Below, in pieces: positions 6,434-25,112 of a DNA stretch of 25,112 bases (position 1 is the stretch's first letter; every line of letters starts with the position of its first letter). This DNA comes from a virus: positions 1-25,112 of the IMG/VR virus record IMGVR_UViG_3300024999_000369, one strand, 5' to 3'. The notes beneath the pieces are model-generated. The model made no database searches, was not told the origin of the DNA, and saw nothing but the letters and a program-made list of their open reading frames with translations. Both the position numbers and the translations under genes were made by a program.

Positions 6434-6446
6434 GGGGTGAGACTTA

Positions 6447-8787: not shown

Positions 8788-8845
8788 GGGCTAATTTAAT
8801 AGCTTATCCATAAAGTGATGTGATTATACCAGAATGAAATTCAAC

Positions 8846-8871
8846 CCGCGTTATAACGCGTACTAACGCGG
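8846..8871. repeat. Triple CGCGTTA palindrome in a gene gap
   Basis: Three copies of a 7-mer occur as CGCGTTA (8847-8853), TAACGCG (8854-8860) and TAACGCG (8864-8870). The first two make a perfect 14-bp palindrome. The first and third make an 8-bp stem (8846-8853 with 8864-8871) over a 10-base loop. There is no T run, so it is not a standard terminator. A protein-binding site or an RNA structure that can switch between two pairings is possible. Confidence 0.6.
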
Positions 8872-8907
8872 TTTCCTGATGAATTAAGTATGAAGCGTGG
8901 TGACCTT

Positions 8908-9927
8908 ATGGCAAGAAAATTAATACTAAGTGTAAGCTCATCGGAAATCGATGGAGTGCCCAGTGTCATAAAACTATTGCCCCTCGGGCTTGTTAAGTCC
9001 CAAAAGGGAGATTTTCTTGTCGATGAGGAGAGCTTTCAACGGATCAAGAACACCTTTGAAGAACGAGGAATCGACATCGTCATTGACTACGAGCATCAGA
9101 CCCTTGAAGACGTTCAGGCCCCTGCTGGAGGATGGATCAAGGACTTGTTTATCCAAGATGGGGCAATTGCAGCAAAGGTTGAGTGGACACCAAAGGCTGA
9201 GGAGTATCTGAAGAATAAGGAATACAAATACCTCTCACCTGTCGTTCTGGTCAGAAAGAGTGACCAAAAGGCCGTTGTCCTTCACTCTGCAGCTCTTACC
9301 AACACACCGGCGATTGATGGAATGTACGCCATTGTGAACTCGTTAAACATAGATGAATTTGAAAAAGGGGTAATGGAAATGGACTTAAATAAATTAGCGG
9401 CTCTTCTCGGTCTACCTGAAGGAGCTACGGAAGAACAAATAATGCAAGCACTCACGACGGCCCTTGGGGAGTCGGAAAAGCTGAAAAAGGATACTGGAAC
9501 TGAAATTGTGTCAAATAAAGTGATTTGCGGTCTGCTCGGAATCGATGATAAAGCGTCTAAGACTGAGGATGTGGCGGCTGCTATCATGGCCCTGAAAAAC
9601 CCTGCCAACTTTGTGCCGGCAACAGAGTTCAACAAGCTCAAGGAAAGACTTGATAAAAAGGACAGCGGTGAGCTGGTAATCAAGGCGTTGAAGGCGGGTA
9701 AAATCTCAGCAGCCCAGAAGGAATGGGCTGAAGAATACGCTTTGAAAGACCCTGAAGGCTTTACAAAGTTTGTGGAAAAGGCTCCTCAAGCCGTTCCAAT
9801 GGGAGAACTTGATATTGAAGACTCCAAGCGTAATGATGGCAAAGTTTCCGAAACAACTATGGCAGTCTGCAAGCAGCTGGGAGTTTCTAAGGAAGACCTT
9901 GACAAGTACGGAAAGGATGTGAAGTAA
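8908..9927 (+). CDS. Prohead protease and scaffold (Mu gpI-like)
   Basis: This encodes 339 residues from ATG 8908, which has a GTGGTGA site at 8897-8903. An upstream ATG at 8890 is in frame but has only a weak site. The N-terminal 140 residues resemble the Mu I protease: LLPLGLV, IVIDYEHQT (57-65), APAGGWIKDL (71-80), KYLSPVV (107-113) and HSAALTNTPAI. The conserved YEH and LSP motifs are expected to hold catalytic residues. The C-terminal half is charged and helical, as in capsid scaffolds, and is probably cut off during head maturation. A nested in-frame start with its own ribosome site lies at 9379. It is followed by the decoration and major head genes, as expected. Confidence 0.88.
   Translation: MARKLILSVSSSEIDGVPSVIKLLPLGLVKSQKGDFLVDEESFQRIKNTFEERGIDIVIDYEHQTLEDVQAPAGGWIKDLFIQDGAIAAKVEWTPKAEEYLKNKEYKYLSPVVLVRKSDQKAVVLHSAALTNTPAIDGMYAIVNSLNIDEFEKGVMEMDLNKLAALLGLPEGATEEQIMQALTTALGESEKLKKDTGTEIVSNKVICGLLGIDDKASKTEDVAAAIMALKNPANFVPATEFNKLKERLDKKDSGELVIKALKAGKISAAQKEWAEEYALKDPEGFTKFVEKAPQAVPMGELDIEDSKRNDGKVSETTMAVCKQLGVSKEDLDKYGKDVK
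9379..9927 (+). CDS. Nested scaffold protein (Mu gpZ-like), alternative start
   Basis: An in-frame ATG at 9379 lies eight bases after the purine run AAAAAGGGG (9362-9370). It would produce the last 182 residues of the protease gene as a separate scaffold beginning MDLNKLAALLG. In Mu, gene Z is made in this way from inside gene I. The helical, charged composition fits a scaffold. The start falls exactly at the join between the protease and scaffold parts. The internal ribosome site is seen; production is inferred. Confidence 0.55.
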   Translation: MDLNKLAALLGLPEGATEEQIMQALTTALGESEKLKKDTGTEIVSNKVICGLLGIDDKASKTEDVAAAIMALKNPANFVPATEFNKLKERLDKKDSGELVIKALKAGKISAAQKEWAEEYALKDPEGFTKFVEKAPQAVPMGELDIEDSKRNDGKVSETTMAVCKQLGVSKEDLDKYGKDVK

Positions 9928-9929
9928 CA

Positions 9930-10796
9930 GTGTTAAGTGTAGGAAGAAACACTTCTGAAAGGAAGGTCAATTTTCTATTAGTGCTTGTTGCGGCACAAAC
10001 AATTATTTACGAAGGAGGCTTAGTCGTATTGGAAGCAGGCTATGCCAAGCCGGGGAAAGAAGCGGCCGGACTTGTTTGTCTTGGTAGAGCTGAAGAATAT
10101 GTCAACAATTTTGCTGGGCAAAACGGCGATAAATTGGTAAGAGTTAAAAGAGGCTGCTTTAAGTTCGAGAACGATTCTGATAACCCAGTGACAGGGGCGC
10201 ATGTCCTTCAAGACTGCTTTATCGTGGATGATGAAACAGTATCCTCTTCAGATGAATCTTCCGCTCGGTCGGTGGCCGGGAAAGTTATTGCTGTTGAATC
10301 TGACGGAGTTTGGGTTGATATGTGGGAATCTCCTGATCTTGTCCTTTATGAACTGGCCGGCGTAGGCAGAACCACTGAAACGGTGAAAGGTAATGCTGAT
10401 ACAATTGCTGCTCATGCGGCAAAAAGGCATGTATTCAATGCAGTGGCAATAGCCAGTCTTGCAGAAATCAACGCGGGTAAGGCAATTATTCCAGGCGTTA
10501 TAGGGAAAAAGATTGTACCGTTAAATTACTCGCTTCGAGTAAGCGGTCCGTTTGCAGCAGGTACAAATATTAAGCTGCAAGACAGTAACGACGTACCGAT
10601 TGTAGTATGTACTGCTTTAGCTGCAGCATTAACAGATGGGGCAAAAATCGGATCTCAGGCTACTGTTGCTAATGTAACAGATGGCGCTGGTTTCCAGGGA
10701 GAATTGACATCCGGTAAGAGCATGAATTTAGTAGCTACAGGTGCTTTTACAGGTGGTACATCGATTGCGATTTCTATTGATTATGCCCTTGTGTAA
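9930..10796 (+). CDS. Capsid decoration-like protein, two-part
   Basis: This 288-residue protein lies between the scaffold and the major head genes, the usual place of capsid stabilising (decoration) proteins. Residues about 20-140 have a DUF2190-like look: GGLVVLEAGYAKPGKEAAG, GDKLVRVKRGCFKFEND, VLQDCFIVDDETVSSS and AGKVIAVESDGVWVDM, all beta-rich. The C-terminal 120 residues are a further beta-rich domain (VSGPFAAGTNIKLQDSNDVP, SKGS-type strands, ending IAISIDYALV) joined by a polar helix. The likely role is to cement the capsid surface. GTG 9930 is assumed as start, with AAAGGATG about 11 bases upstream, a rather long spacing. The C-terminal addition is not something I can name. Confidence 0.65.
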   Translation: MLSVGRNTSERKVNFLLVLVAAQTIIYEGGLVVLEAGYAKPGKEAAGLVCLGRAEEYVNNFAGQNGDKLVRVKRGCFKFENDSDNPVTGAHVLQDCFIVDDETVSSSDESSARSVAGKVIAVESDGVWVDMWESPDLVLYELAGVGRTTETVKGNADTIAAHAAKRHVFNAVAIASLAEINAGKAIIPGVIGKKIVPLNYSLRVSGPFAAGTNIKLQDSNDVPIVVCTALAAALTDGAKIGSQATVANVTDGAGFQGELTSGKSMNLVATGAFTGGTSIAISIDYALV

Positions 10797-10831
10797 TTAT
10801 GCATTCTAATTAGAGAAGGAGAAATTATAAG

Positions 10832-11728
10832 ATGATAGTAAATCAACAAGCATTAGTGGGAATCACGACAGGCTTTAAGACAATATTCAACAAGGTCTTT
10901 GATACAAGCACGACGCTTTGGGACAAGATCGCAACTAAAGTTCCAAGTGAGACCGGGGAAGAAAACTATAAATGGCTTGGCAAGATCCCTCGAATGAGGG
11001 AATGGATTGGAGATCGTGAGATTCAAAACCTTACCGGATCTGATTACACGATAAAAAACAAGGACTTTGAGCTGACCATCGGGGTTGATCGGAATGACAT
11101 CGAGGATGACAAAATTGGAGTCTATAATCCAGTCATCCAGGATATCGCTCAAAGCACGGTAACCTTCCCTGATGACCTTGTTTTCGGACTCGTAAAGGGA
11201 GGTTTCACTAATAAATGCTATGATGGGCAGCCGTTCTTCTCGGATGCACACAAGGCAGGTAAAAAGACTGTCAGCAACAAGGGTACAAAAAAACTTACTG
11301 TCGAATCCTACGCCGAAGCAAGAAGCGCCATAATGTCTCAGGTTGATGAAAATGGAAACAGTTTGAAGCTCATTCCTAATATCCTGATGGTAGCTCCTGC
11401 CAATGAAGGAATGGCAAGAAAAATATTGCTTGCTGATCAAATTGAAGCCTCTGACAACGTCTTTAAGGGTACAGCAGAGCTTATGGTTGTTCCTGACCTT
11501 GCTGGAGAAGACACGGACACGGCGTGGTATCTCCTTTGTACAACTAAAGCGTTAAAGCCTTTCATCTTTCAAGAACGGAAAGCTCCAAAGTTTGACGCTT
11601 TAATTGACGACAAGGATGAGAATGTCTTCATGAGAAAACAGTTTATCTATGGTGTAACCTCAAGAGCTAATGCCGGGTACGGCTTTTGGCAGATGGCCTT
11701 TGGTTCTACTGGAGCGGATGCAGAGTAA
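10832..11728 (+). CDS. Major head protein, Mu gpT family
   Basis: This 298-residue protein closely follows the Mu gpT pattern. Its N-terminus is MIVNQQALVGITTGFKTIFN, followed by YKWLGKIPRMREWIGDREI and VDRNDIEDDKIGVYNP, with a late FMRKQFIYGVTSRANAGYGFW. It has the HK97-like capsid fold expected of this family and forms the icosahedral shell. The start ATG 10832 has an AGAAGGAG site upstream. The stop TAA overlaps the ATG of the DUF1320 gene (11728), so these are coupled. Confidence 0.95.
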   Translation: MIVNQQALVGITTGFKTIFNKVFDTSTTLWDKIATKVPSETGEENYKWLGKIPRMREWIGDREIQNLTGSDYTIKNKDFELTIGVDRNDIEDDKIGVYNPVIQDIAQSTVTFPDDLVFGLVKGGFTNKCYDGQPFFSDAHKAGKKTVSNKGTKKLTVESYAEARSAIMSQVDENGNSLKLIPNILMVAPANEGMARKILLADQIEASDNVFKGTAELMVVPDLAGEDTDTAWYLLCTTKALKPFIFQERKAPKFDALIDDKDENVFMRKQFIYGVTSRANAGYGFWQMAFGSTGADAE

Positions 11729-12177
11729 TGCCATACTGCACACTTGAAGAAGTCAGAGGCATGATAAAACCGGATGCCTTAAATGCCATCATCGGAGATG
11801 AGTACATCGAGGACGAAGCCCTCAGAGAAGCAAAGATTATACCCATTATCGAGGAGGCTATTGGGGATGCAGACGGTGAAATCGACGGATACCTTGCTAA
11901 AAGGTATTCCATCCCCTTCTCCCCTATTCCAAAGGTGATTAATAAGTTTTCTAAGGATATCGCGGTGTATAACCTCTTCTCAAGGATTGGGATTGATGAG
12001 AGTGAGAAAGAAAGCAATTACCTTACAAGGTATAAGGCAGCTGTTAGGTTCCTTGAAAATGTCGCAAAAGGCATGATCGAGATTGGAATATCAGATACCA
12101 CTATTAAGGCCAATACCGGGTTCAATATAAGTTCAAGTCCAAGACTATTCTCGCGAGAATCCATGAGAGGAATGTAA
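11728..12177 (+). CDS. DUF1320 head-completion protein (Mu gp36-like)
   Basis: This encodes 149 residues from ATG 11728, in a TAATG overlap with the major head gene. A longer frame from 11686 would run through coding sequence of gpT and is rejected. DUF1320 marks are MPYCTLEEVRGMI, IPIIEEAIGDADGEIDGYLAKRYSIPF and KDIAVYNLFSRI. In Mu-like phages this protein sits between head and tail genes and is thought to join the head and tail or complete the neck. The C-terminus is basic and polar. Confidence 0.9.
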   Translation: MPYCTLEEVRGMIKPDALNAIIGDEYIEDEALREAKIIPIIEEAIGDADGEIDGYLAKRYSIPFSPIPKVINKFSKDIAVYNLFSRIGIDESEKESNYLTRYKAAVRFLENVAKGMIEIGISDTTIKANTGFNISSSPRLFSRESMRGM

Positions 12178-12180
12178 ACC

Positions 12181-12681
12181 GTGTACAGCATTAGACTCGA
12201 TGGAGATGTTAGACGACTCATGAGAAGGCTCCGCCAATTGGAGGAAGTAGATCTTAGAGGTGTAAGCTTGGCGTTGGCAGAATCCCTCCGCACTTCTACC
12301 AGGGAACGCTTCAAGGAAACAAAAGACCCTGAAGGAAAAACGTGGGAAAAGTCAATCAGAGCCACTCGTGAGGGTGGCACAACCTTGACAAATACTGCGG
12401 GCCTCAAAAACTCTATCAAGTCCGAGGCTGATGGAACGGGATTTGCGATAGGAACCAATAAGATTTATGCCAGAACTCACCAGTTCGGAGAAGAAGGCAG
12501 AGAAATTACCATTAGAGCCAAGACATCCAAGGGACTCGTATTCAAGATAGGTGACAAATGGATTCGTAAAAAGGAAGTAACCGTCACGGTCAAAATTCCA
12601 GCACGTCCCTTCTTGGGCATCTCGGAAGACGATATGCACGAAATCAGGGGAACTCTTGAGGATGCTTTAGCGGAGGATTAA
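12181..12681 (+). CDS. Phage virion morphogenesis protein (Mu gpG / P2 gpS-like)
   Basis: This 166-residue protein begins at GTG 12181, three bases after the previous stop. Family marks are an N-terminal helical region (LMRRLRQLEEVDL), RFKETKDPEGKTWEKS (about 43-58), LTNTAGLKNSIKSEADGTGFAIGTNKIYARTHQFG (about 68-102) and ARPFLGISEDD. It completes tails or joins them to heads. In Mu it follows gpF; here it comes after gp36, an order found in other groups of Mu-like phages. Confidence 0.9.
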   Translation: MYSIRLDGDVRRLMRRLRQLEEVDLRGVSLALAESLRTSTRERFKETKDPEGKTWEKSIRATREGGTTLTNTAGLKNSIKSEADGTGFAIGTNKIYARTHQFGEEGREITIRAKTSKGLVFKIGDKWIRKKEVTVTVKIPARPFLGISEDDMHEIRGTLEDALAED

Positions 12682-12683
12682 AC

Positions 12684-13187
12684 ATGATCGAACAATGCAA
12701 AGAGTATTTAATTCAAAAGATCACGGAGGCGGGGATAAAATCAAAGGTTTTTACATGCATAAAGAAGCTTGAAGCATCTAACGAAAGTCATATCGGAGCA
12801 GTGTTATTTGCAGGTGATAGCTTCGAACGAAGCGGAGCAAAAACTATATATGTAGATCAACTAGGCATTAAGCAGAAAAGAGTTAAAACGTTCGACCGAA
12901 AATCAAGTTTCGTTGTGGTGATTGGCGAGTATGACCAGAGCAAATGTGAAAGCATATTCGAGAAGTTTATTGGCTTATTGGACCGTGGGATCTTGATTGA
13001 CGATAACTTCACAGCAATCGAAGTCGAAGATGCTGACTGGGTTGAAGAGAATGACAGTGTGCTAAAGGCCAAAGTTGCAGTTCAGGTCAAGATCCGGTTT
13101 GATGGTGGGCTTTATAAAGATAGCACTTTAGGCAAACTTAAGGAGTTTGACTTAACAATTGAAGTGGAAGGAGAAAACGATGAATAA
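12684..13187 (+). CDS. Probable tail terminator-like protein (Mu gp37 position)
   Basis: This 167-residue protein starts at ATG 12684 with GGAGG at 12673-12677. The sequence alternates helices and strands and has no clear motif that I recognise with certainty. It has the size, mixed alpha/beta make-up and acidic end of tail terminator or minor tail proteins. Its position right before the sheath matches Mu gp37 (DUF1834). The role as the ring capping the tail tube is an inference mainly from order. Its last eight bases overlap the next start. Confidence 0.55.
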   Translation: MIEQCKEYLIQKITEAGIKSKVFTCIKKLEASNESHIGAVLFAGDSFERSGAKTIYVDQLGIKQKRVKTFDRKSSFVVVIGEYDQSKCESIFEKFIGLLDRGILIDDNFTAIEVEDADWVEENDSVLKAKVAVQVKIRFDGGLYKDSTLGKLKEFDLTIEVEGENDE

Positions 13188-13404
13188 AGCTAGTGCAGAA
13201 GACACACATAGTCTTTTAACTATTGAGGACTTAAAAGAAAAAAGTCAAACGCCTGATAAAGTTTTCCAGGGCGCGAAGGCTGCCAAAGGCTGGAGAGCAG
13301 GAAAGGCAGTCACCAAAGAGGATTACGAGAACGCACTGAAAGAGTTCTTAGAGTCTCCTGCTGGAGGAAGGAAGGTGAAAAAGGATGCCGCTAAGGGACG
13401 TTAA
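13180..13404 (+). CDS. Small unknown protein before the sheath (Mu gp38 position)
   Basis: This encodes 74 residues from ATG 13180, with AAGGAGA just upstream. A longer frame from 13159 would begin inside the previous gene without a ribosome site. The protein is charged, helical and ends in a basic run (GGRKVKKDAAKGR). The segment LTIEDLKEKSQTPDKVFQGAKAAKGWRAGKAVTKEDYENALKEFL could form two or three helices. I recognise no family. The 3' end overlaps the sheath gene by 20 bases. Confidence 0.65.
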   Translation: MNKASAEDTHSLLTIEDLKEKSQTPDKVFQGAKAAKGWRAGKAVTKEDYENALKEFLESPAGGRKVKKDAAKGR

Positions 13405-14809
13405 TACAATCATTACTGACGGGGGCCTTGGAGTGGATACCACTAAGGGAGTAGGCATTCATTTTAAGATTGGAGTTTCTCCTATCGTGTCGAGTGTTCC
13501 TATTGTTATCTCTGGGACAATGAACGCAAAGAAAATCAAAGAAAAACTCGGTCTGAGTCCTTTAGCTGATGCTTGCATGGATAGTGTGGAAAATGGCTCT
13601 AATATGATCTACTGCTTGCCAGTTATTGCGTCGGTAGCTGGCACGATCGGAACCGTGACAAAGGCTGGAACAGGATTGGGACTATGCACGGTCACTGGAG
13701 CGCCTAACAATGCCTATGAATTGCTCGTGAAATTTACAGGTGCAGGAGGATTCAATGAAGCGGTGCTGCGGTATTCGGTAGATGGAGGGTATTCGTACTC
13801 CGATGAAGTCACTTTGGCAGTCAATGGAGAGGTCAGTATTCCTTCAACGGGAGTCGTTTTCAAGTTTACCGAGGATGTGGTCAAGGCAGACTCTTTTAAG
13901 ATTGGTGATACCTATACCGTTAAAACCGAAGCTCCGCAAATGACGAATGAGGACGTGCTCGGTGCAATCGATAAATTGAGGAATACAAGCTACTCCTTCG
14001 AGTTTGTCCATATCGTCGGAGAGTCAACAAAGGCCCTATGGGCGGCAGTATCTTCAGAAGAGCAGACGTTTTATGAGCAGTACAAAAAACCTCTGTTTTT
14101 TGTGCTTGAAGCTAGGAATATCACTGAAGACGAAAGCCTAGATGAATACGCTCAATACCTTGTTGACGAGAGAATTGGTCTGCAGAACTATGATATACAG
14201 ATCGTGACAGCAAGGTCTCTCTACACGAGGATGGACGGCACGATCCACGACATCAACAACGCAGGGATTGTGTGTGGCCTATACTCGAAATCGAAGGTAC
14301 AGCAGTCAATTGGTGAAGTTAAAAGCTTCAGTATTTCCGAGAATAAAATGCTGGAACTACTTCCGGTGGGGATTGAAGATTACATCGGAATACTCGATGA
14401 AACAAAATATCTCACCTTCAGGAAGTATGAAGGGCTTGAGGGGTTCTATGTTACAAATGCTAGGATGATGTGCCCAGATGGATCGGACTATCGATATGCT
14501 GAGGATGTCAGGGTAAAAAATAAAATTGTAAAAGAGACACGAAAGAAAGCACTTCTGGAGCTTCAAAGTGACGTAGACATGGTCGATGTCCAGGGTAGCC
14601 TTGAAACAATAGCTAAATTCATTCAGATACCACTCGACATAATGGCGAGATCGAAGGAAATATCTTCGGCAAAGATCATAGTTCCAGAGGGTCAGGATAT
14701 TCTTGCCACCGAAAAACTGATTATCGTTATTAGATATATTCCAATTGGTCATATCAGAGAAATCGAGATTGACCTTGGAATGGAAAATCCATTCACAAAA
14801 CAGCTATAA
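13385..14809 (+). CDS. Contractile tail sheath protein (DUF2586, Mu gpL-like)
   Basis: This 474-residue protein starts at ATG 13385, preceded by GGAAGGTG. DUF2586-type features are MPLRDVNTIITDGGLGV at the N-terminus, VAGTIGTVTKAGTGLG in the middle and the C-terminal TKYLTFRKYEGLEGFYVTNARMM, followed by RYAEDVRVKNKIVKETRKKALLEL. The C-terminal part is the conserved sheath core. Sheath subunits surround the tube and contract to drive it through the envelope. Its presence shows that the phage is a myovirus. A tube gene follows, as usual. Confidence 0.9.
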   Translation: MPLRDVNTIITDGGLGVDTTKGVGIHFKIGVSPIVSSVPIVISGTMNAKKIKEKLGLSPLADACMDSVENGSNMIYCLPVIASVAGTIGTVTKAGTGLGLCTVTGAPNNAYELLVKFTGAGGFNEAVLRYSVDGGYSYSDEVTLAVNGEVSIPSTGVVFKFTEDVVKADSFKIGDTYTVKTEAPQMTNEDVLGAIDKLRNTSYSFEFVHIVGESTKALWAAVSSEEQTFYEQYKKPLFFVLEARNITEDESLDEYAQYLVDERIGLQNYDIQIVTARSLYTRMDGTIHDINNAGIVCGLYSKSKVQQSIGEVKSFSISENKMLELLPVGIEDYIGILDETKYLTFRKYEGLEGFYVTNARMMCPDGSDYRYAEDVRVKNKIVKETRKKALLELQSDVDMVDVQGSLETIAKFIQIPLDIMARSKEISSAKIIVPEGQDILATEKLIIVIRYIPIGHIREIEIDLGMENPFTKQL

Positions 14810-14822
14810 GGAGGGATGTAAG

Positions 14823-15257
14823 ATGTCGATCATTAACGGCAAGAGTTATGACTGGTCTGATGTAGCTGTGAAGCTTCCGGGGCTTGAGATTGAGGTCCAA
14901 GAAATCTCCTATGATGATGAGCTTGAAAAAGAAGCCGTTTACGGAAAAGGCAGCAGTCCAAGAGGTTACGGTACTGGGAACTATAAAGCATCGGGAAAGA
15001 TCTCGTTTCTCAAAGATGACTTTGATGATCTCGTAAATTACTGCAAGCAGCAGGACGTTTCTCTTTACAAGCTCGTAATACCAAAAATCACTGTCAGCTA
15101 TGCGAATCTATCCCAAAGGACTACTACGGATGAGCTAGACACCGTGACCTTTACGAAGACGAGTCATAAAGATGCCCAGGGAGATAAATCCTTGAAGGTT
15201 GACATGGACTTTATCATTGTTAACGGCATTACTAGGGACGGTTTAAAGGCAGTTTAA
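14823..15257 (+). CDS. Tail tube protein
   Basis: This encodes 144 residues from ATG 14823, which has a strong AAGGAGGG site; the longer frame from 14745 starts within the sheath gene and is rejected. The protein is beta-rich (YDWSDVAVKLPGLEIEVQEISYDD; GTGNYKASGKISF; LKVDMDFIIVNGI), as expected for the tube of a contractile tail. Position after the sheath and before the chaperone agrees with Mu gp40 (gpM). The resemblance in sequence to Mu is slight, so the name relies on size, fold pattern and order. Confidence 0.8.
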   Translation: MSIINGKSYDWSDVAVKLPGLEIEVQEISYDDELEKEAVYGKGSSPRGYGTGNYKASGKISFLKDDFDDLVNYCKQQDVSLYKLVIPKITVSYANLSQRTTTDELDTVTFTKTSHKDAQGDKSLKVDMDFIIVNGITRDGLKAV

Positions 15258-15300
15258 AGAGCGTTAGTCTCAATATAAATGACAAATTGGAGGAAGAAAA

Positions 15301-15630
15301 ATGGATATCGATAACGTGGAAATATATAAGGCTAAATACGGAAAGGTATATTGCGTTAAAGCGACAATTGAGCCGGACGATTCAGCAACCGTTGAGCTTG
15401 ATTACGTTTTTAAAAAACCTGCAACGGCAAGTTATGACCGATATGTAAAGAGCACTTCCCAAAGCCCGACAAAGGCACTCAAGGCGTTTGTCCTAGACAA
15501 CATTATTGCTGAACAGACACAGAAACTTGAGGCCGATCTTGAAGAATACCCTGCCCTCTCCCTTAGTATCGGGGAAAAGCTTTTGAACATGTTGGGGTTG
15601 TCTAAAGACATAAATTTAAAGCAGCTCTAG
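15301..15630 (+). CDS. Tail assembly chaperone, short form (Mu gp41-like)
   Basis: This encodes 109 residues from ATG 15301, with a GGAGG site ten bases upstream. A beta-rich N-terminus (VYCVKATIEPDD) is followed by FKKPATASYDRYVKST and a helical end (LEADLEEYPALSLSIGEKLLNMLGL). The pattern kP-x-x-yDRY with EEYP is typical of chaperones located between tail tube and tape measure, which guard the tape measure during tail assembly. A perfect slippery heptamer sits at 15612-15618, 10 bases before the stop codon at 15628. Slipping back one base would add a second domain ending at 15836. Confidence 0.8.
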   Translation: MDIDNVEIYKAKYGKVYCVKATIEPDDSATVELDYVFKKPATASYDRYVKSTSQSPTKALKAFVLDNIIAEQTQKLEADLEEYPALSLSIGEKLLNMLGLSKDINLKQL

Positions 15631-15836
15631 AGGAGCAGCTCCAGGAGATAAGTACAAATTACATTCAGGCTGGCACCCTAGAAATACACCGATACTTACC
15701 TCCTGCTCTTTTGGAGAAAGCTGTTGCAGTCATGGACATGGACGAATTTTTGAAGGCTCTTGCTCAGGCAAGATACATTCAACAGCTCGAAGAGAATGTA
15801 ATGGCCCGGGCTATTTCGAAAGTATTTTCGGAATAA
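15606..15836 (+). CDS. Tail assembly chaperone, -1 frameshift extension
   Basis: The -1 frame is open from 15606 to a TAA at 15834-15836 and has no ribosome site of its own. Read after slipping at 15612-15618, it adds 72 residues and gives a 178-residue fusion protein. The extension reads ...KFKAALEEQLQEISTNYIQ, HRYLPPALLEKAVAVM, then DEFLKALAQARYIQQLEENVMARAI and SKVFSE. It is helical and charged. Such two-part chaperones, made by a programmed slip just before the tape measure gene, are widespread in tailed phages. The ratio of short to long form matters for tail assembly in lambda (gpG/gpGT). Confidence 0.75.
   Translation, partial: RHKFKAALEEQLQEISTNYIQAGTLEIHRYLPPALLEKAVAVMDMDEFLKALAQARYIQQLEENVMARAISKVFSE
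15612..15618 (+). promoter_or_regulatory. Slippery heptamer A AAT TTA
   Basis: The zero-frame codons are AAT and TTA preceded by A, a perfect X XXY YYZ site of the type used by Rous sarcoma virus gag-pol. A hairpin follows (15621-15627 with 15633-15639, one A-A mismatch) whose loop contains the zero-frame stop codon TAG. The -1 frame is blocked by a TAA at 15603-15605, so the slip must occur after it. Confidence 0.8.
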
Positions 15837-15872
15837 AAAAGAACCGGCCTCGTTAAAAGGTCGGTTCTTTTC
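15837..15872. terminator. Bidirectional terminator between chaperone and moron
   Basis: A 13-bp stem (15837-15849 with 15859-15871, one G-T pair) closes a 9-base loop and has a run of Ts on the right for the plus strand and a run of As (Ts on the minus strand) on the left. It can end the tail chaperone transcript and the opposing moron transcript. The moron stop codon lies in the loop. Confidence 0.85.
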
Positions 15873-16098
15873 TTGAAATCCAGCTTTTGTATAAGATTGT
15901 GGCGTGTTTCGCAGTCTTAAAGAGACTTTCCTTCTTCTTGTCATGATGCTTGCCTATGGTGAACTGATTGCCGACCCAAAGGCAATATGGGATCACATAG
16001 ATAGTAAGCGGTACAAAGATAACAACTGATATTACGACACCAGCACCAAGGGCGAAAAGGACGATATAAAAAAGACCCGTTAAAAGAAGCATGATCAT
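15853..16098 (-). CDS. Small membrane protein on the opposite strand (moron candidate)
   Basis: This 81-residue protein is the only gene on the minus strand and stands inside the tail operon, between the chaperone and tape measure. ATG 16098 has a perfect GGAGGG site seven bases upstream (16111-16106); the longer frame from 16131 would run across it. Residues about 3-43 form one long or two short membrane spans (LLLTGLFYIVLFALGAGVVISVVIFVPL..., then IYVIPYCLWVG). A basic tail follows (GKHHDKKKESLFKTAKHATILYKSWISRK), likely on the cytoplasmic side. It has its own candidate promoter and shares a bidirectional terminator. Such genes (morons) are often expressed in the lysogen, for example to exclude related phages. 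No function can be read from the sequence. Confidence 0.7.
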   Translation of the reverse strand: MIMLLLTGLFYIVLFALGAGVVISVVIFVPLTIYVIPYCLWVGNQFTIGKHHDKKKESLFKTAKHATILYKSWISRKEPTF

Positions 16099-16121
16099 GA
16101 TTGAACCCTCCTTTTTATTTG

Positions 16122-16130
16122 AATATACCA
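16122..16130 (-). promoter_or_regulatory. Extended -10 promoter candidate for the moron
   Basis: On the minus strand the bases 16130-16122 read TGGTATATT, a TGN plus TATATT extended -10 element. Transcription would begin around 16115, directly before the GGAGGG of the moron. There is no clear -35. On the plus strand the same region offers TTGAAC (16101-16106), 17 bases, then TATACC (16124-16129), which could be a weak promoter for the tape measure gene. Confidence 0.35.
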
Positions 16131-16169
16131 TAGTTTAACATTTTTATACAGGGGGGTGAAGAAAATAGT

Positions 16170-18686
16170 GTGAGCTTAGATACGGTTTTTAAGTTAAGTG
16201 TAATTGTTGGCATGATCGATCGTTTATCAGGCCCCATGGCGAGAGTCGGGTCCACCGTGGATAGTTCCGTTGGAAAAATCGAAAAGCTCAATCAGTCCTT
16301 TAATAATATGGCGAAGACAGGGATTGCAATTGCTGGCGTTGGGAGCCAGATCGCGGGGGCTATGATCGCCCCTGTTACAGCTACCTTTGGAACAAGAAAA
16401 GCTCTCGGAGAATTAAAATCAGTTGGAGTCAAGGATTTAAAAACACTCGAAAATGCTGCAAAAAGCTTTTCGGATACGTGGGCAGGAACAACGAAAGCTG
16501 ATTTTATTGGCGCTGCATACGACATTAAATCTGGAATTGCTTCTTTGAGTGATGAGGCGGTCGGTAAATACACAGAGATTGCAGGTATAACCGCCAAGGG
16601 AACAAAGGCGACTACCGCAGAGATGACCAGTCTCTTCGCAACTGGGTATGGTATCTATAAAGGGTTTTATAAGGATATGTCCGATATTGATTTCGGAGAA
16701 ATGTTTGCAGCTGGGATTGGTAATACTGCTAATATTTTTAAAACTGACGGAGCTAGTATGGCACAGGCTATCTCTGGATTGGGAGCAGCTGCAACGTCAG
16801 CAAAGGTCCCAATGGAAGAACAATTTGCCATACTTGGAATGCTGCAAGCCACCATGAGTGGAGGCGAAGCCGGTACTAAATACGCAGCCTTTATTGGATC
16901 GGCTGCTAAAGCCGGAGAAACTTTGGGTCTAAAGTTCACTGATGCCAATAAACAGCTTTTGAGTATGCCTGAAATCCTCGGTTTACTGAAAGGTAAATTC
17001 GGTGAAACAATGGATTCTGCGGAAAAGATGAAGTTGGTAGAGGCTTTCGGAACCGATGAAGCTGTAGATATGGTCGACTTGCTGTATAACAAAACAGGGG
17101 ATCTCCAAAGTGGCATCCTATCTGTATACGGAGCCATGGGGAATGGTGTTAACGAAGTTCGCGCTATGGCAAATGCAATAAATGATACTGAGCCTGACAA
17201 ATTCACGGTATTACAGCAGCGGCTTCACAATGTAGGTGAAGAAGTTGGAAATACTCTATTACCAACCTTCAATCAATTACTCGATCGTGGCGGTCAGGTA
17301 ATCGACAAAGTGGGTGCTTGGATAGGAAAAAATCAGGATCTTGTCAGGGTTATTTCTTTAACTGTAATTACAATTTCTATCATTTTAGCGGTTCTAGGAG
17401 TGTTTATTGCGGGTTTTGGGGCACTTGGACTAGTAGTTACAAAGACTGCTGGGGGAATTGTTAACTTCGTAGTAACATTGAAAAAAATACCTGACATGCT
17501 AACTACTATTCGAATTCAGGCCATGTACGCAGGAGACTCACTCAAGGCAGCTTTTGGAGGAGTTAAAAGCTTTGCTTCCTCAGCAGCAACGGGCATCAAG
17601 AATGTTTCTACATCAATCTTTAACATGGCAAGAGCTGCTGCGGTCAACGGAGCGACAGCCGTAAAGAACTTTGTAGTCAGCTTAGTTCAAATGGCTAGAC
17701 AAGCAGTTACAACAGCAGTCACCGCAATGCCTGGTCTGATAGCCTCAGTATGGGCTTTCACAGTGGCTCTCCTGGCTAATCCTATGACTTGGGTTGTTAT
17801 CGGTATCGTGGCTTTAATAGCAGCCCTGGTACTCTTGTGGCAGAACTGGGATAGCGTCGTGAGCTTTTTCTCTAATAGTTGGCCTAAGATTACTGGTGCT
17901 TTTTCAAGTGGAATCCAATCAGTTAAGGATTTCATAACCGGGTCTTTGGCATGGTTTAAGGAGTCAGGAGCTAAGGTTCTTACAACCTTCACAGAGGGAA
18001 TCACAAGTGCGGTGTCAGCCCCGGTAAACGCTGTAAAAGGTGCATTGGGAAAGATTAGGGAGATGTTGCCATTTTCAGATGCTCATGTAGGACCTTTATC
18101 AGAATTAACGTTATCAGGACGGAGAGTATTTGAAACCATAACTAGCGGTATGATTAAGACCAAGAATCTTCCTGCGGATGTAACAGAGCAAGCCTTTAAT
18201 GGCGTCAGTTTGGCTGCTACTCTAGCAGTCGCACCGGCACCAGACCCAGTACCAACTCCTACCTCGGCTCTTACTCCATCCCCTGTTGCTACTCCGGCTA
18301 TCGTTCCAGCAGTCGCACAGGAACCAGCCCCAATACCAACTCCTACCCAGGCTCTTACTCCGGCCCCTGTTGCTACTCCGGCTATCGTTCCGGCAGTCGC
18401 ACTGTCACCAGACCCAGTACCAACTCCTACCTCGGCTCTTGCTCAAAGTCCTACTAATGTGACATCTCGTGAAGAAGTTAAAAAGGTTAACATAAAGGAA
18501 ATCACAAGAGAAAAAGCGGAGAACAATCAAAGCTCTAAAGACAAAGAAAAGGCAACTATCATCGAAAAATTAATCATTCAGGTGGATATTAACAAGCTCA
18601 AGGATCTCCCGATGCTCTTTAAATTACTCAAAGAAATCGAAGACTACACGAACGGTAACGGAAGCGATCTGGTTGGGGAGGGATAA
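16170..18686 (+). CDS. Tail tape measure protein
   Basis: This 838-residue protein starts at GTG 16170 after GGGGGGTGA at about 16151-16159. The N-terminal region (MSLDTVFKLSVIVGMIDRLSGPMARVGSTV) and the TP901-type core (GAAYDIKSGIASLSDEAVGKYTEIAGI..., LGAAATSAKVPMEEQFAILG) mark it as the tape measure, which sets tail length and is ejected ahead of the DNA. Hydrophobic segments are at residues about 392-424 and 522-556 (NPMTWVVIGIVALIAALVLLW). Residues 686-761 contain a Pro/Ala/Thr-rich tandem repeat, and a charged helical end follows. The tail-chaperone genes lie directly upstream, as usual, but separated by the antisense moron and its terminator. Confidence 0.93.
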   Translation: MSLDTVFKLSVIVGMIDRLSGPMARVGSTVDSSVGKIEKLNQSFNNMAKTGIAIAGVGSQIAGAMIAPVTATFGTRKALGELKSVGVKDLKTLENAAKSFSDTWAGTTKADFIGAAYDIKSGIASLSDEAVGKYTEIAGITAKGTKATTAEMTSLFATGYGIYKGFYKDMSDIDFGEMFAAGIGNTANIFKTDGASMAQAISGLGAAATSAKVPMEEQFAILGMLQATMSGGEAGTKYAAFIGSAAKAGETLGLKFTDANKQLLSMPEILGLLKGKFGETMDSAEKMKLVEAFGTDEAVDMVDLLYNKTGDLQSGILSVYGAMGNGVNEVRAMANAINDTEPDKFTVLQQRLHNVGEEVGNTLLPTFNQLLDRGGQVIDKVGAWIGKNQDLVRVISLTVITISIILAVLGVFIAGFGALGLVVTKTAGGIVNFVVTLKKIPDMLTTIRIQAMYAGDSLKAAFGGVKSFASSAATGIKNVSTSIFNMARAAAVNGATAVKNFVVSLVQMARQAVTTAVTAMPGLIASVWAFTVALLANPMTWVVIGIVALIAALVLLWQNWDSVVSFFSNSWPKITGAFSSGIQSVKDFITGSLAWFKESGAKVLTTFTEGITSAVSAPVNAVKGALGKIREMLPFSDAHVGPLSELTLSGRRVFETITSGMIKTKNLPADVTEQAFNGVSLAATLAVAPAPDPVPTPTSALTPSPVATPAIVPAVAQEPAPIPTPTQALTPAPVATPAIVPAVALSPDPVPTPTSALAQSPTNVTSREEVKKVNIKEITREKAENNQSSKDKEKATIIEKLIIQVDINKLKDLPMLFKLLKEIEDYTNGNGSDLVGEG
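18225..18452 (+). repeat. 84-bp tandem repeats in the tape measure gene
   Basis: GCAGTCGCAC recurs at 18225, 18309 and 18393, giving two full 84-bp units and about two thirds of a third. Each unit codes for 28 residues, beginning AVA and including PTPT-ALTP-PVATPAIVP. The period is a multiple of three, so copy number can change without shifting the reading frame. Confidence 0.9.
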
Positions 18687-18688
18687 CC

Positions 18689-19309
18689 TTGATATACCTT
18701 GATGAGAGTACCATAAAGATCGGGGGGGTTATCCTCCCTGGTCTCTTCAAAAGCATTGAAATTAAGAGCGATGCCTTGATTGAGGAACAAACGGTTGAAG
18801 GCAGAACTGAAAAGCCAAAACAAGCTACCGGATATGAGGATGCAAAAATAAACGTGGAGCTTCTCATTTATGATGGTCCTGAACTTACGAAGCTACAGAA
18901 GCTTGAAGCGATTCAAAACCTCTTTAAGAAAAGCGGTCAGGCAAAGCCCGTTGTGTACGAAATGGTCAATGAACATACGGCGGTCAGAGGAGTAACACAA
19001 GTTATCTTTAAAAACCTAACAACTAAAGAGCAAAACAAAAACGACGAGCTTTCAGTCATGATTGAGCTTTGGGAGTATGTTGCAATGACTATTACTGCCA
19101 CAGAAACCTCAAGCTCGGCAAGCTCAGCAGCTTCGAAGGCAAAGAGTACCTCAGCGGCCAATGCAACTATATCGACTGAATACCAGGGCTACTTAAGCAA
19201 CCGAGGAGCAGCTCCAAAAATTCAAGATAAGACATCTAATACGGCTGCAACAGATGATGCTGATACTCTATCATTTAGGGAAAAAATGAGGCTAATAGAG
19301 CAATATTAA
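18689..19309 (+). CDS. Tail/baseplate protein at the Mu gp43 position
   Basis: This 206-residue protein begins at TTG 18689, with a GGGGAGGG site at 18675-18682. Residues 1-130 form an alpha/beta domain (IKIGGVILPGLFKSIEIKSD, EGRTEKPKQATGYEDAKINVELLIYDG, VYEMVNEHTAVRGVTQVIFKNL) of a kind seen in tail proteins that bridge the tape measure and baseplate of Firmicute phages. Then comes a Ser/Ala-rich linker (about 138-163) and a short polar end. It stands where Mu has gp43 (gpN). I cannot show homology to gpN, and the linker suggests a flexible tail or a lost second domain. Confidence 0.6.
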   Translation: MIYLDESTIKIGGVILPGLFKSIEIKSDALIEEQTVEGRTEKPKQATGYEDAKINVELLIYDGPELTKLQKLEAIQNLFKKSGQAKPVVYEMVNEHTAVRGVTQVIFKNLTTKEQNKNDELSVMIELWEYVAMTITATETSSSASSAASKAKSTSAANATISTEYQGYLSNRGAAPKIQDKTSNTAATDDADTLSFREKMRLIEQY

Positions 19310-19319
19310 ACGAGGTGAA

Positions 19320-20078
19320 ATGGTGGAAAAAAGCGAGCTCTTTTATCCTGAGATCAGTGTAAATATCGGGGGATATTTTTTTAAAAAGGGCATTGAAATC
19401 GAAGCTTACTCCTCAAAGAATTCATACTTCGATTGGGCAAAAGTTAGATTCACACAGCAGTTTAATCAAAAGATTACCCTTAATAAAAAGGATAAATCCT
19501 TAATTAGACTGGGTTATGATGGGGTTCTCGATGAAGTCTTTGAAGGGTATGTAGTCAATCCAATGAGCGAAGGAAGCTTCTCGAACGAAGTTATTTTGAA
19601 GGATGAAATGATATTCTTAGAAGAGACTTACATCACAAATACTTTTCTAAATGCGACACCACAAGAAATACTTAATTTCTGCCTAAACAAGGCAGGAATA
19701 ATAAAGATGAAGATAACCTCGAAGACTTTTCAAAAGCGAAAAACGATACCGATCTTCCGAAAGAATGTAATATCAGTCATCGAAGAGATCCACGCTATAT
19801 GGAAGATCAAAGAAGAATTCTTTTTCCTCGAAGGCGTGTTCTACTGGGGAGAAAAGCCGGAGCAAAAGAAAGTATACGAGTTTGAATATGCAGTTAATAT
19901 CATATCCCTCGAAAGACCAGGAGGAGTTTGGGAGCTTGAAACTGTATCCGCGCCCTTCATCAAGCACTCACAAAGAATCATTGTAAGGCACCCGAAAATA
20001 TCCGGGGAATTTGAAACCAAGAAGGTTGTCTTCACGACAAATGAAACGGGATTTATTCGAACCTATATTTACTTCTAA
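19320..20078 (+). CDS. Baseplate hub protein (Mu gp44 / P2 gpD-like)
   Basis: This 252-residue protein follows the usual gp44 pattern. The N-terminal part (residues about 5-90) has strands like ISVNIGGYFFKKGIEIEAYSS and WAKVRFTQQF, then VFEGYVVNP. Residues about 105-160 form the middle domain (TNTFLNATPQEILNFCLNKAGI). The C-terminal half is beta-rich. Hub proteins form the central ring of the baseplate under the tube and hold the spike. Start is ATG 19320 or GTG 19323; a GAGGTG site at 19312-19317 is better spaced for GTG 19323. The spike and wedge genes follow. Confidence 0.75.
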   Translation: MVEKSELFYPEISVNIGGYFFKKGIEIEAYSSKNSYFDWAKVRFTQQFNQKITLNKKDKSLIRLGYDGVLDEVFEGYVVNPMSEGSFSNEVILKDEMIFLEETYITNTFLNATPQEILNFCLNKAGIIKMKITSKTFQKRKTIPIFRKNVISVIEEIHAIWKIKEEFFFLEGVFYWGEKPEQKKVYEFEYAVNIISLERPGGVWELETVSAPFIKHSQRIIVRHPKISGEFETKKVVFTTNETGFIRTYIYF

Positions 20079-20090
20079 GGAGGGAGAGCT

Positions 20091-20375
20091 GTGTTGGAGC
20101 AGATGATCAAAAATGTCATCGAAAAGCTTATTCAGGTAAGATATCAACATGTAAAGCTCCCTGCCACTGTTTACGCAAAGATCACAAAAGCACAAGAATA
20201 CCCGGATTATTACATGTATAATCTCAAAATACTTGACGAAAACAAAGCGATTAACACAAGCTTTCCTGAGATACTGGAGGTAAAGTCCAAGGAAAAGCTT
20301 GATTACGGAGATGTTGCGGCGGTAGTTCTCCTGTATGGTAAGCTCGATGTTTTTGTAGTCGGGAAGGTGATTTGA
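20091..20375 (+). CDS. Baseplate spike-type OB-fold protein (gp45/gpV-like)
   Basis: This 94-residue protein starts at GTG 20091 after an excellent AAGGAGGGAG site (20077-20086). A helical start (residues 1-20) is followed by a five-strand pattern, LPATVYAKITKAQEYPDYYMYNLKILDENK, then KLDYGDVAAVVLLYGKLDVFVVGKVI, with the hydrophobic and turn spacing of an OB fold. It is shorter than Mu gp45 or P2 gpV and lacks their long spike helix and tip, so it may be only the hub-facing part. The position between hub and gp46-like genes supports a spike or spike-adaptor role. Confidence 0.6.
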   Translation: MLEQMIKNVIEKLIQVRYQHVKLPATVYAKITKAQEYPDYYMYNLKILDENKAINTSFPEILEVKSKEKLDYGDVAAVVLLYGKLDVFVVGKVI

Positions 20376-20785
20376 TGGCAGGTCTATACGATACAGATAT
20401 TAAACTAGATGATAATTGGCAGTTGACTCCTGCTACAAATGGCGACGCTCCCCTCGTTTCAAATGCGGAGTGCATCATCCAGGACATCCGGCTCGAAGCT
20501 TCATCCCAAGAAGGAGAACTCTTTTATGACCGAGATTGGGGATGGTCGCTGCTTGACTTTATTCAGGCACTAGATGATGATCTGACGAGGCTTGAGATCG
20601 AACAAAGGGTCAAGATGAAGCTCTCAAAAAGAGAATCCATTGACAATGGAACGATCAAAACAAAGCTTGAGTTCAATAGTGACACAATCTTTATCCGAGT
20701 ATCTTTCAAATTTATCAATGACTTAGCTCAGTACAACTTGGATGTTGCGCTGGATCGGGTCAAGGTTGAGGTTGTGATCGTATGA
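20375..20785 (+). CDS. Baseplate wedge protein (Mu gp46 / gpW / T4 gp25-like)
   Basis: This 136-residue protein starts at ATG 20375, sharing the TGATG overlap with the previous stop and using GGGAAGGTGA at 20361-20370; a TTG at 20372 is less likely. The sequence has the gp25-like pattern: an N-terminal IKLDDNWQLTPATNGDAPLVSNAECIIQDI, then EGELFYDRDWGWSLLDFIQALDDD and IEQRVKMKLSKRESI. Strands follow at the end. T4 gp25-like proteins are part of the wedge that polymerises sheath. It partly overlaps the baseplate J gene (20782). Confidence 0.85.
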   Translation: MAGLYDTDIKLDDNWQLTPATNGDAPLVSNAECIIQDIRLEASSQEGELFYDRDWGWSLLDFIQALDDDLTRLEIEQRVKMKLSKRESIDNGTIKTKLEFNSDTIFIRVSFKFINDLAQYNLDVALDRVKVEVVIV

Positions 20786-21912
20786 TTGATGATAAAATAC
20801 TAGACGAGATCCTCCCAGTGCCGGACATAAACGAGCTGAAGAACTCAATCCAGGATGAGTTAGCTTCAGAAGGTTTTACGATAACGAACTTCAGTTCAGG
20901 GGGCGTTTTCTATACTCTATTGATGATACTCCTCCGAATACGAATTGAGTTGGTCAAGCTCTTAAGGGGTGTAGTTAACAACACTTTTGCCTCACATGCT
21001 CAGGATGTGTGGATGGAGCTTAAGGCAGCAGATTTCTCGAAGAAGCTAAAGCAGCCAACAAAAACAAGTGGATATGTAACCATCGAGAGGGATGCTCCTG
21101 GAGATGCGGTCAAGATTGCTAAAGGAGACGTGTTCAAAACAGAGCAAGACATTAATGGCGATGAGCTCCGCTTCTTGGTAGTAGAGGATGCAATTCTTCA
21201 AACCGATTCCTTAAGTCAGAAGGTTCTTGTGATGGCTGAAACAACGGGCGCAAAATATAATGTTCCTCCTGGACAAATAACAAAGTCCCTCACTCACATC
21301 GAAGGTGTTGACAGGATATCCAATGCCTCCGATTGGCTCGTTCAAGAAGGAAGCGACACTGAGGATATTGAGAGTTTGAGAACAAGAACTCTCAATTCAT
21401 GGGCAGAACTTTCAACTAATCCTATTAGTGATAAATACAAGAATGTTTGTGAAGCAGTTGAAGGAGTCCTGTTTGTAAGAGTTGATGACATGCATCCTCG
21501 GGGTCAAGGAACAATTGATATAATAGTGACTTCTCCGGCAGGAGCTGCAACCCAAGGCTTACTTGATAAAGTGGAAGTTGAAGCTATCACAATAAAAGGG
21601 CCGTATGATAACTTACTCATAAAGTCATCAGAGGTCGTGCAGCAGGACATTGAAATTGTTATATTCATTGCAGAAGATGCAAGTGATGAAGGCATCGTGG
21701 AAAGAGCTGAAGAAATTATCACTGCGCTGCTGGTGGTCAGTAAGGATAGAGAATTAAACAATTTATACCTAGATGACATTAGATATGCACTGAAAAACGA
21801 AATCAAAGTTTACAAGAAAACAAACATCGTGTCCCCTGCTGATGACGTGATCCTAAGCAATGACAAGGTTATTATGCTTGGTTTACTCAATATAAGTGTT
21901 GAGTGGGTGTAA
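20782..21912 (+). CDS. Baseplate J-like protein (Mu gp47-like)
   Basis: This 376-residue protein begins at ATG 20782, overlapping the previous TGA by four bases. Baseplate J features are an N-terminal helical domain (FTITNFSSGGVFYTLLMILL), the strands GYVTIERDAPGDAVKIAKGDVFKT, DTEDIESLRTRTLNSW and, later, DDMHPRGQGTIDIIVTSPAG. It forms part of the wedges around the hub and cooperates with the gp46 and gp48-like proteins. The sequence is uninterrupted and of usual length. Confidence 0.93.
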   Translation: MIDDKILDEILPVPDINELKNSIQDELASEGFTITNFSSGGVFYTLLMILLRIRIELVKLLRGVVNNTFASHAQDVWMELKAADFSKKLKQPTKTSGYVTIERDAPGDAVKIAKGDVFKTEQDINGDELRFLVVEDAILQTDSLSQKVLVMAETTGAKYNVPPGQITKSLTHIEGVDRISNASDWLVQEGSDTEDIESLRTRTLNSWAELSTNPISDKYKNVCEAVEGVLFVRVDDMHPRGQGTIDIIVTSPAGAATQGLLDKVEVEAITIKGPYDNLLIKSSEVVQQDIEIVIFIAEDASDEGIVERAEEIITALLVVSKDRELNNLYLDDIRYALKNEIKVYKKTNIVSPADDVILSNDKVIMLGLLNISVEWV

Positions 21913-21915
21913 GCT

Positions 21916-22725
21916 ATGTTTGAAAAGTTTCAAGATTATATGTACTACCTTCTTCCGGGACCTCTCAAGAAAATTGCCAAGACGAAGAATCAGTTTTATA
22001 TACTTTTCAAGGTGTTTGGAAAGGTGTTTGACCAATCGAAGCAGGATATCTTCAGAGTTCGTGAGGAGTCTATGATTATCAGTGCTAGTGGAAAGATGCT
22101 GAGTGAACATGGACGAGACAGAAATATGCCAAGATTCCAGGGTGAAGATGTTGAAAACTACAGAATCAGATTGTCGATGAAGAATATCATTGCTGAAAAA
22201 GCAGGAAGCAACGAAGGAATTGTTTATGCATTAAGAAGTCTAGGATTCAAAAATTTTGATATTCAGCCACTTTGGAAGAAAGATCCTGAACGATGGGCCG
22301 AGTTCATGATAATTATTGATGAGCAAGATATAGATTTGTGTAAGACTTTCAATGCAGTTAAAAGCACAGTAAGAGATGTGAAAATGGCTAGCTCACTCCC
22401 TAATTATGGCTTTCAACTCTATTCATCTAATCCTAGCAGTGCAAATGAAACAGTCGTAAAAAATACAATGGCAGTCAACTTCTTTGGAAATATCAGTATT
22501 TTGTTAGATGGAAGCTGGATGCTTGACGGAACTAATTTATTGAGCGGATATGTAGGATATAGAGAGCCTATGCCGATGAGGACGTATCTTCAGATGTCAG
22601 TACCTACAAGCCAAGATTTAAAGGCAATGCTAACCACGGAATATAATTTATGGCGATTGGATGGTAGTTTTAGACTCGATGGAACTAAGGAGTTAAGTGC
22701 TGCGATATGGGAGGAGGAATTGTAA
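21916..22725 (+). CDS. Tail protein I-like (Mu gp48-like) baseplate protein
   Basis: This 269-residue protein starts at ATG 21916, just after the previous stop. The N-terminal 180 residues are helical and mixed alpha/beta (FQDYMYYLLPGPLKKIAKTKNQF, LSEHGRDRNMPRFQGEDVENYRIRL), as seen in the tail protein that links baseplate wedges to fibres. The C-terminal part has two copies of a motif of the form LDGSW-LDGTN-LLSG (about residues 197-212) and LDGSF-LDGTK-ELS (about residues 249-261), beta hairpins common in Firmicute tail proteins. The gene overlaps the next start (TAATG). Confidence 0.8.
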   Translation: MFEKFQDYMYYLLPGPLKKIAKTKNQFYILFKVFGKVFDQSKQDIFRVREESMIISASGKMLSEHGRDRNMPRFQGEDVENYRIRLSMKNIIAEKAGSNEGIVYALRSLGFKNFDIQPLWKKDPERWAEFMIIIDEQDIDLCKTFNAVKSTVRDVKMASSLPNYGFQLYSSNPSSANETVVKNTMAVNFFGNISILLDGSWMLDGTNLLSGYVGYREPMPMRTYLQMSVPTSQDLKAMLTTEYNLWRLDGSFRLDGTKELSAAIWEEEL

Positions 22726-23105
22726 TGGCGAATAGTGTCACAACTAATATTGGTAGGCAGAAGCTTGCAAGTGCAAGAGCAGGAGAAATAACCTTACCGT
22801 CCATAACTAAAATGGCTTTTGGCGATGAAGGTGTAACGTTGGATGGCACCCCTATTCCACCGGTTGGAACTGATATCGCGCTAAACCATGAACTACTCAG
22901 AAAAGATATAACTGAACACAGTTTTCCGATTGCTACAACATGCCGGTATTCGTGTCGATTGCTTAAACCTGATTTGGCAGATCAAAAGATCAATGAAATA
23001 GCATTAATTGACTCTGACGGCGACATTGTAGCTATCAAGACATTTCGAAATAAAGAAAAAGATGCCGATGCCGAAATGGTATTCGAAATAGATGATGAAT
23101 TTTAG
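22725..23105 (+). CDS. Tail fibre N-terminal-domain protein
   Basis: This 126-residue protein starts at ATG 22725, with a GAGGAGGA site at 22711-22718; the frame extends to 22707, but that start lies within the preceding gene. The sequence has the usual phage tail-fibre N-terminal pattern: TTNIGRQKLASARAGEITLPSITKMAFGDEGV, then LNHELLRKDITEH and INEIALIDSDGDIVAIKTF. In larger phage fibres this domain binds the baseplate and is followed by the shaft. Here it is a separate protein, so it probably serves as an adaptor for the fibre encoded next. Confidence 0.8.
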   Translation: MANSVTTNIGRQKLASARAGEITLPSITKMAFGDEGVTLDGTPIPPVGTDIALNHELLRKDITEHSFPIATTCRYSCRLLKPDLADQKINEIALIDSDGDIVAIKTFRNKEKDADAEMVFEIDDEF

Positions 23106-24751: not shown

Positions 24752-24958
24752 ATGGAGGAGCAACACCAAACGAAGTGGAGTCGGCGTATTTACGTTGCAC
24801 TAATTACAACCTTGATAATTACAAATATTTATGTCGTTATTGACTCGGTAAGAACAAGTCGCTCAACTAGAGCGCTTAATCAGCAAATATCTGAAACTGA
24901 CAAACGATGGTCTAATGTCATTGATCGGATTCAGAAACGCTTGGATGCTCAGGAATAA
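24752..24958 (+). CDS. Small single-span membrane protein at the right end
   Basis: This 68-residue protein starts at ATG 24752 after GAAGGATGG (about 24733-24741). It has a basic N-terminus (KWSRRIY), one membrane segment (residues about 13-31, YVALITTLIITNIYVVID), and a helical coiled-coil tail (LNQQISETDKRWSNVIDRIQKRL). It lies beyond the tail-operon terminator, the position where Mu carries com/mom and other phages carry morons. No family is recognised. A role in the lysogen, in late lysis or in superinfection exclusion is possible; it may be transcribed separately. Confidence 0.65.
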   Translation: MEEQHQTKWSRRIYVALITTLIITNIYVVIDSVRTSRSTRALNQQISETDKRWSNVIDRIQKRLDAQE

Positions 24959-25012: not shown

Positions 25013-25045
25013 ATAGAGGGTAAATCTATCGGGCTTTCCCTCTAT
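25013..25045. terminator. Stem-loop near the right end
   Basis: ATAGAGGG (25013-25020) pairs with CCCTCTAT (25038-25045) over a 17-base loop. The plus strand has no T run after it, but on the minus strand it is followed by a TTTTATTTG stretch. It is therefore more likely to stop leftward transcripts, including any from host DNA beyond the right end. Confidence 0.5.
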
Positions 25046-25048
25046 GAA

Positions 25049-25111
25049 CTACTTCTAAAATCTAGGTCATTTTTGCCAAAAATCTTGAGAACTTTTGCCA
25101 AAAATTTTGAG
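25049..25111. repeat. 22-bp direct repeats, likely transposase-binding sites
   Basis: TTTTGCCAAAAATCTTGAG (25071-25089) and TTTTGCCAAAAATTTTGAG (25093-25111) agree at 18 of 19 bases and have a 22-bp period. A weaker copy in register occupies 25049-25070 (11 of 22 bases shared, including AAAATCT). Mu transposase binds sites of about 22 bp set close together at the ends of its genome, so this pattern next to the window end suits the phage right end. Confidence 0.6.
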
Positions 25112-25112
25112 C

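Follow-up and report, generated by a model that had tools for sequence, protein, structure and literature searches.

Tandem 22-bp repeats at the edge of a viral contig as predicted transposase-binding sites at the right end of a Mu-like phage of Firmicutes

The linear IMG/VR fragment analyzed here (25,112 bp, in its whole length referred to as the window) ends in two direct repeats that are almost certainly R1 and R2, the tandem 22-bp sites predicted to bind transposase, at the right end of a Mu-like DDE-transposase phage of Firmicutes. This assignment follows from a gap-free alignment in 22-bp register, together with the termini and target duplications found in relatives. R1, the outermost predicted site (25093..25112, plus strand), is represented by the first 20 of its 27 bp according to the gap-free right-end alignment, and R2, the second one (25071..25092, plus strand), lies exactly 22 bp inward in the same orientation. 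The last 7 bp of R1 would fall beyond the record and are predicted to read GGCTACA, ending in the cleaved CA. At the sequence level the relatives display the site architecture, the termini, the 5-bp duplications, a left-end counterpart and genes of the MuA/MuB type. The putative transposase-binding role of R1 and R2 rests on homology of position and architecture, and for the window itself we infer the last 7 bp, the left end and the transposase.

The two units (TTTTGCCAAAAATCTTGAGAAC at 25071-25092 and TTTTGCCAAAAATTTTGAGC at 25093-25112) are identical at 18 of 20 positions. When offsets from 10 to 60 were compared, this 22-bp-spaced pair gave the best 20-mer match in the whole window. The two-unit array is beyond chance, since it was never equalled in simulations: no window generated with a first-order Markov model (n=200) exceeded 16 matches at offset 22, and 0/5000 simulated 150-bp tails reached 16 matches. 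An earlier note on this DNA had counted three units, of which the two near-identical ones stand and the weak third one (25049-25070) does not. The latter agrees with the unit that follows at just 11 of 22 positions (equally good matches are found for 423 of 25,000 22-mers of the window, or 1.7%), and a conserved in-register third unit is absent among 26 distinct right ends. An Rfam search gave no match.

What follows position 25112 was read in relatives. The spaced double motif is present in nine other viral contigs, and in eight of them it runs on as [C/T]TTGNNC[A/G]GC[T/C]ACA before giving way to unrelated sequence (L006, where the spaced pattern is present and the GGCTACA end absent, was set aside). 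With a broader pattern we obtained 26 stretches from Firmicutes isolate genomes and MAGs, which likewise switch abruptly after ACA; in relatives the two units extend as ...TTTTGAGCGGCTACA, followed by unrelated host DNA. A Thermincola prophage (L120) is identical to the last 44 bp of the window and continues with GGCTACA and then unrelated DNA; other phage contigs match these 44 bp almost fully and change to unrelated DNA at precisely the same base. Four different contigs of one Lachnospiraceae MAG have a common end and diverge only past it. Over the 26 distinct right ends the information content climbs at -50 and stays high through to -1. Given that relatives switch to unrelated DNA right after GGCTACA, the record must end 7 bases before the terminus of the element, which would be the expected stopping point of an assembler if the flanks vary. 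The CA predicted to lie just past the window is indeed found in the relatives that are identical to it over 43-44 bp (these continue with GGCTACA), the window itself being unreadable beyond 25112. For the window's own phage past this position, 10 genomes of the Thermincola order and 113 of the Desulforamulus class gave only end-sequence or distant matches. In L007, which is closest to the window at the right end (86% identity over about 7.9 kb), no phage genes follow the equivalent position, a host cobalt-transport gene (CbiM) lying about 1 kb beyond the terminus.

A pattern search for left ends as inverted copies of the right end (up to three mismatches) returned mostly right ends themselves, because the left site L1 keeps only TGT-N7-CARAAT-N3-TGNCAAA. 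Left ends were found by searching upstream for the five bases following the right end, placed directly before TG, and all seven candidates obtained in this way carry that motif. The motif alone, with the duplication left unused, located further left ends, and the flanks of L139 and L140 (Paenibacillus sanguinis) and of viral contig G008 then matched exactly. In ten complete integrated relatives, with an element size of 30.9-38.6 kb, TGT...ACA is immediately flanked by a perfect 5-bp target duplication: GTAAA, GGAGC and CTTAA in three different prophages of one P. sanguinis genome, and ATAGG, ATGGA, CGAAT, AATAT, AAAAT, GCATT and GTGAT (the last in G008) in other relatives. Two metagenomic elements (G001 and G006) have both ends correct and 5-bp flanks that do not match. 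Their flanks are short, which would be expected of copies taken from virions or from replicating phage, or of a chimeric assembly. For L134 and L136 no left end was found in the stretches examined, and the contig of L114 begins inside the phage.

All left ends begin with TGT, and their first 27 bp hold an inverted, diverged, in-register copy of the unit. A weight matrix built from the right-end units locates L1 in most left ends at bp 11-27, in inverted orientation, and a second left site (L2) is present in relatives at about bp 107-134. The terminal CA, the inverted left site and the 5-bp duplication are all found in relatives; the window stops 7 bp short of its terminus and has no left end. 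The proposal in the earlier note of a probable right end of a transposable phage is therefore upheld by the termini of relatives, the alignment with Mu and the two features it had named for the other end and the joints, namely an inverted copy of the core (bp 1-27) and a 5-bp duplication of host DNA. If binding, cleavage and the roles of the individual sites resemble those in Mu, the MuA-type transposase of the phage would bind R1, R2, the inverted L1 (bp 1-27) and L2, bring both ends together and introduce nicks 3' of the terminal CA. Subsequent joining of the ends to target positions 5 bp apart would give rise to the 5-bp duplication.

It might be argued that the repeats serve a phage repressor or regulator as operators or enhancers and have no part in transposition. 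Tandem sites about two helical turns apart are common operators, and the repressor and transposase of Mu have common binding sites elsewhere in its genome. We nevertheless consider this very improbable: in all relatives the sites sit right at the terminus and reappear inverted at the opposite one, conservation holds up to the final base of the element and breaks off there, and no promoter-like site stands out near the array. Fainter still are the chances of a separate insertion sequence (for instance IS21-like, with TGT...ACA ends) having inserted at or beyond the right edge of the phage. IS21-type elements do have repeated terminal sites and CA ends, and some relatives contain several copies per genome, but in the complete relatives the left partner is situated 31-39 kb away, with phage genes in between and a 5-bp duplication outside both ends, by which the idea is already refuted. 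With this distance, an IS21-like identity (a short element with istA/istB between its ends) was rejected as well. Moreover, the sites line up with the ends of the phages Mu, FP_Mushu and BalMu-1, and inside the right ends examined there is no IS transposase ORF, the neighbours being phage tail or diversity-generating retroelement (DGR) genes. Finally, a chance similarity in A+T-rich sequence, or one of the artefacts that contig ends tend to gather, can be dismissed, given the simulated tails and the identical array type inside long contigs of independent isolate genomes.

The assignment to R1 and R2 can be compared directly with known phages: the right ends of Mu, FP_Mushu and BalMu-1 align with the window from the terminus without gaps, in 22-bp register, over both sites. 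Escherichia phage Mu (AF083977) has, like the window and its relatives, two direct 22-bp units ending in CA, with R1 as the outer 27 bp; it resembles the relatives in its 5-bp target duplication and the window in its late-region type. Differences concern the core (TTTTCGCATTTAT in Mu against TTTTGCCAAAAAT here), the end (CGCTTCA against GGCTACA), the orientation of L2 (in relatives mostly opposite to that in Mu) and the MuA protein, whose identity to that of relatives is about 20% in the DNA-binding half and 23% in the catalytic one. Furthermore, the Mu sequence has an inverted R3 next to the tandem R1 and R2, whereas no Mu-like R3 was detected in the window, where no third site reached the weight-matrix threshold; in several relatives a third, inverted right site is present at about -90 to -127 from the terminus. 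Aligned from the terminus, R2 of Mu and R2 of the window are identical at 13 of 22 positions (TTTT..CA...ATC.TGA.A; hand count), which contradicts the earlier claim of a core unlike the Mu consensus. What had been called a new site specificity is therefore better described as a clade-specific variant of the Mu-type site: judging from the alignment the core TTTTGNCAAAAATYTTG is particular to the clade, yet recognizably related to that of Mu. The core reads TTTTG[C/A/T]CAAAAAT[C/T]TTG in the window clade, TTTCTCAAAAATCGTG in FP_Mushu and TTTTCTCATTTTG in BalMu-1.

FP_Mushu (Faecalibacterium; Mushuvirus mushu, MG711460 / NC_047913) is the closest described phage, with an equal gene order, a terminase 66% identical to that of the window, a MuA 54% identical to a relative's MuA and a right end of two units in the same register that ends in CGCTACA. 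It differs from the window by its core and by a DGR near the right end. Placement of the window in the genus Mushuvirus was rejected in view of the terminase (66% amino-acid identity) and the different core. FP_Mushu replicates by transposition, with a 5-bp repeat and variable host DNA at both ends of the packaged genome (PMC5883640). BalMu-1 (Bacillus, NC_030945) is, like the window, a Firmicutes Mu-like phage with two 22-bp right-end units, and has a terminal GCTACA; apart from the core it differs by a MuA only 23-26% identical to a relative's and by a left end that lacks the GGG comb described below. Toussaint is said to have treated the Mu-like prophages of Firmicutes as a group in 2013 (cited in PMC5883640 and PMC4406082).

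In relatives, MuA-like and MuB-like genes are located near the left end, at the expected place. G001, the closest relative in which both ends are present, codes for a 697-aa protein carrying Mu-transpos_C and DDE_2 domains; after it comes a 324-aa AAA ATPase that has an N-terminal HTH, in a MuA/MuB-like arrangement. The MuAs of relatives with these ends cluster in one group with 38-82% identity across the DNA-binding half, to which FP_Mushu belongs (41-56% in that half). One P. sanguinis genome contains three different Mu-like prophages (L138, L139 and L140) with near-identical right ends. Of these, L139 (G018:C2) has an almost unchanged right end and a transposase only 16-22% identical to the group in the DNA-binding half. 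Its L2 is oriented opposite to that of L138 and L140; the L2 of G010 is turned like that of L139, and the G010 transposase is 42% identical to the one of L139 against 24% to the one of G001. Tentatively, and with less than even confidence, these comparisons could be read as a clade-wide specificity of the core TTTTGNCAAAAATYTTG, distinct from that of Mu and kept by two transposase lineages (about 20% identical in the DNA-binding half), with L2 turned in the second. If so, the ends would either be constrained beyond the transposase or have been kept through transposase replacement, and they would provide a natural series from which to derive the code by which MuA recognizes its sites.

The gene content of the window is of the Mu type. 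A Mor/C-family middle/late transcription activator (2595..2945, plus strand; PF08765, E 4.5e-16) precedes a Mu-type packaging, head and tail region (4117..23105, plus strand), which is based on PHROGs and Pfam matches and on synteny with FP_Mushu. This region includes the small and large terminase subunits, the portal, Mu F-like, Mu I protease and gpT major head proteins, with the tail genes after gpT assigned by position; Mu-type head, packaging and tail genes thus occur in Mu order, as in Mu-like transposable phages (Saltoviridae-type). No MuA/MuB-type gene is present in the window, which begins downstream of their expected place. The last late-region ORF (24752..24958, plus strand) encodes 68 aa with an N-terminal hydrophobic stretch and no family match, and the array starts about 110 bp past it, confirming its position after the last gene of a Mu-type late region. 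Between this gene and R2 lies a hairpin (AUAGAGGG...CCCUCUAU; 25013..25045, plus strand) with a fold of -12.5 kcal/mol (z -2.86; equalled by 0/200 shuffles). It has no canonical T-run and was not called as an intrinsic terminator; it probably marks the end of late transcription. Similar GAGGG...CCCTC hairpins are found in the equivalent place in L002, L010, L119 and L127.

The analysis fixes the exact right terminus for a large group of Mu-like phages of Firmicutes, covering Paenibacillus, Thermincola, Desulforamulus, Ruminiclostridium and Lachnospiraceae. The consensus obtained for both ends allows prophage boundaries and insertion sites to be recognized from sequence in these bacteria. The principle is already known from Mu and Firmicutes Mu-like prophages are already in the literature, so that the main value lies in the comparative set of ends. 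This set comprises about 25 right and 14 left ends that differ in their cores and come with matching transposases; it could serve the study of how MuA-type proteins read their sites, and it suggests ends for transposition tools of different specificity.

Many relatives carry DGR-type genes (reverse transcriptase, accessory protein and variable-protein candidates) just inside the right end: L003, L004 and L009, judging by ORFs also L002, L008 and L010, and by annotation FP_Mushu and BalMu-1. The window's phage is without them. DGR-bearing members of the Firmicutes Mu-like prophage group have been described before. In six Lachnospiraceae elements (L095, L116, L119, L121, L122 and L165) a conserved palindrome, CGGGAAATATTTCCCG, is located directly inside R2, at about -72 to -53. 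One Lachnospiraceae MAG contains a 65-bp near-palindrome (L137:3201-3265) formed by a back-to-back pair of inverted R1 ends (TGTAGCCGCTCAAAATTTTTGTCAAAG...TTTTGACAAAAATTTTGAGCGGCTACA), with no phage between the ends and no 5-bp duplication; it is possibly a deletion remnant or a miniature element.

Between L1 and L2, the left ends of relatives bear a comb of GGG[A/G/T] motifs with 10-bp phasing (at bp 30, 50, 60, 80 and 90, for instance). It was seen in L093, L138, L140, L142, L100, L146, L147, L149, L150, L096 and L109, together with FP_Mushu (L158 1-107) and Mu (L160 1-107). Within ends, 87 of 103 distances are at most 1 from a multiple of 10 (about 30% expected; 0/5000 random placements), a statistic that overstates independence as the left ends are related. 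Mu has a partial comb (33, 53, 63, 78) and BalMu-1 none. The packaging (pac) signal of Mu is placed near the left end, and the GGG comb may represent such a signal.
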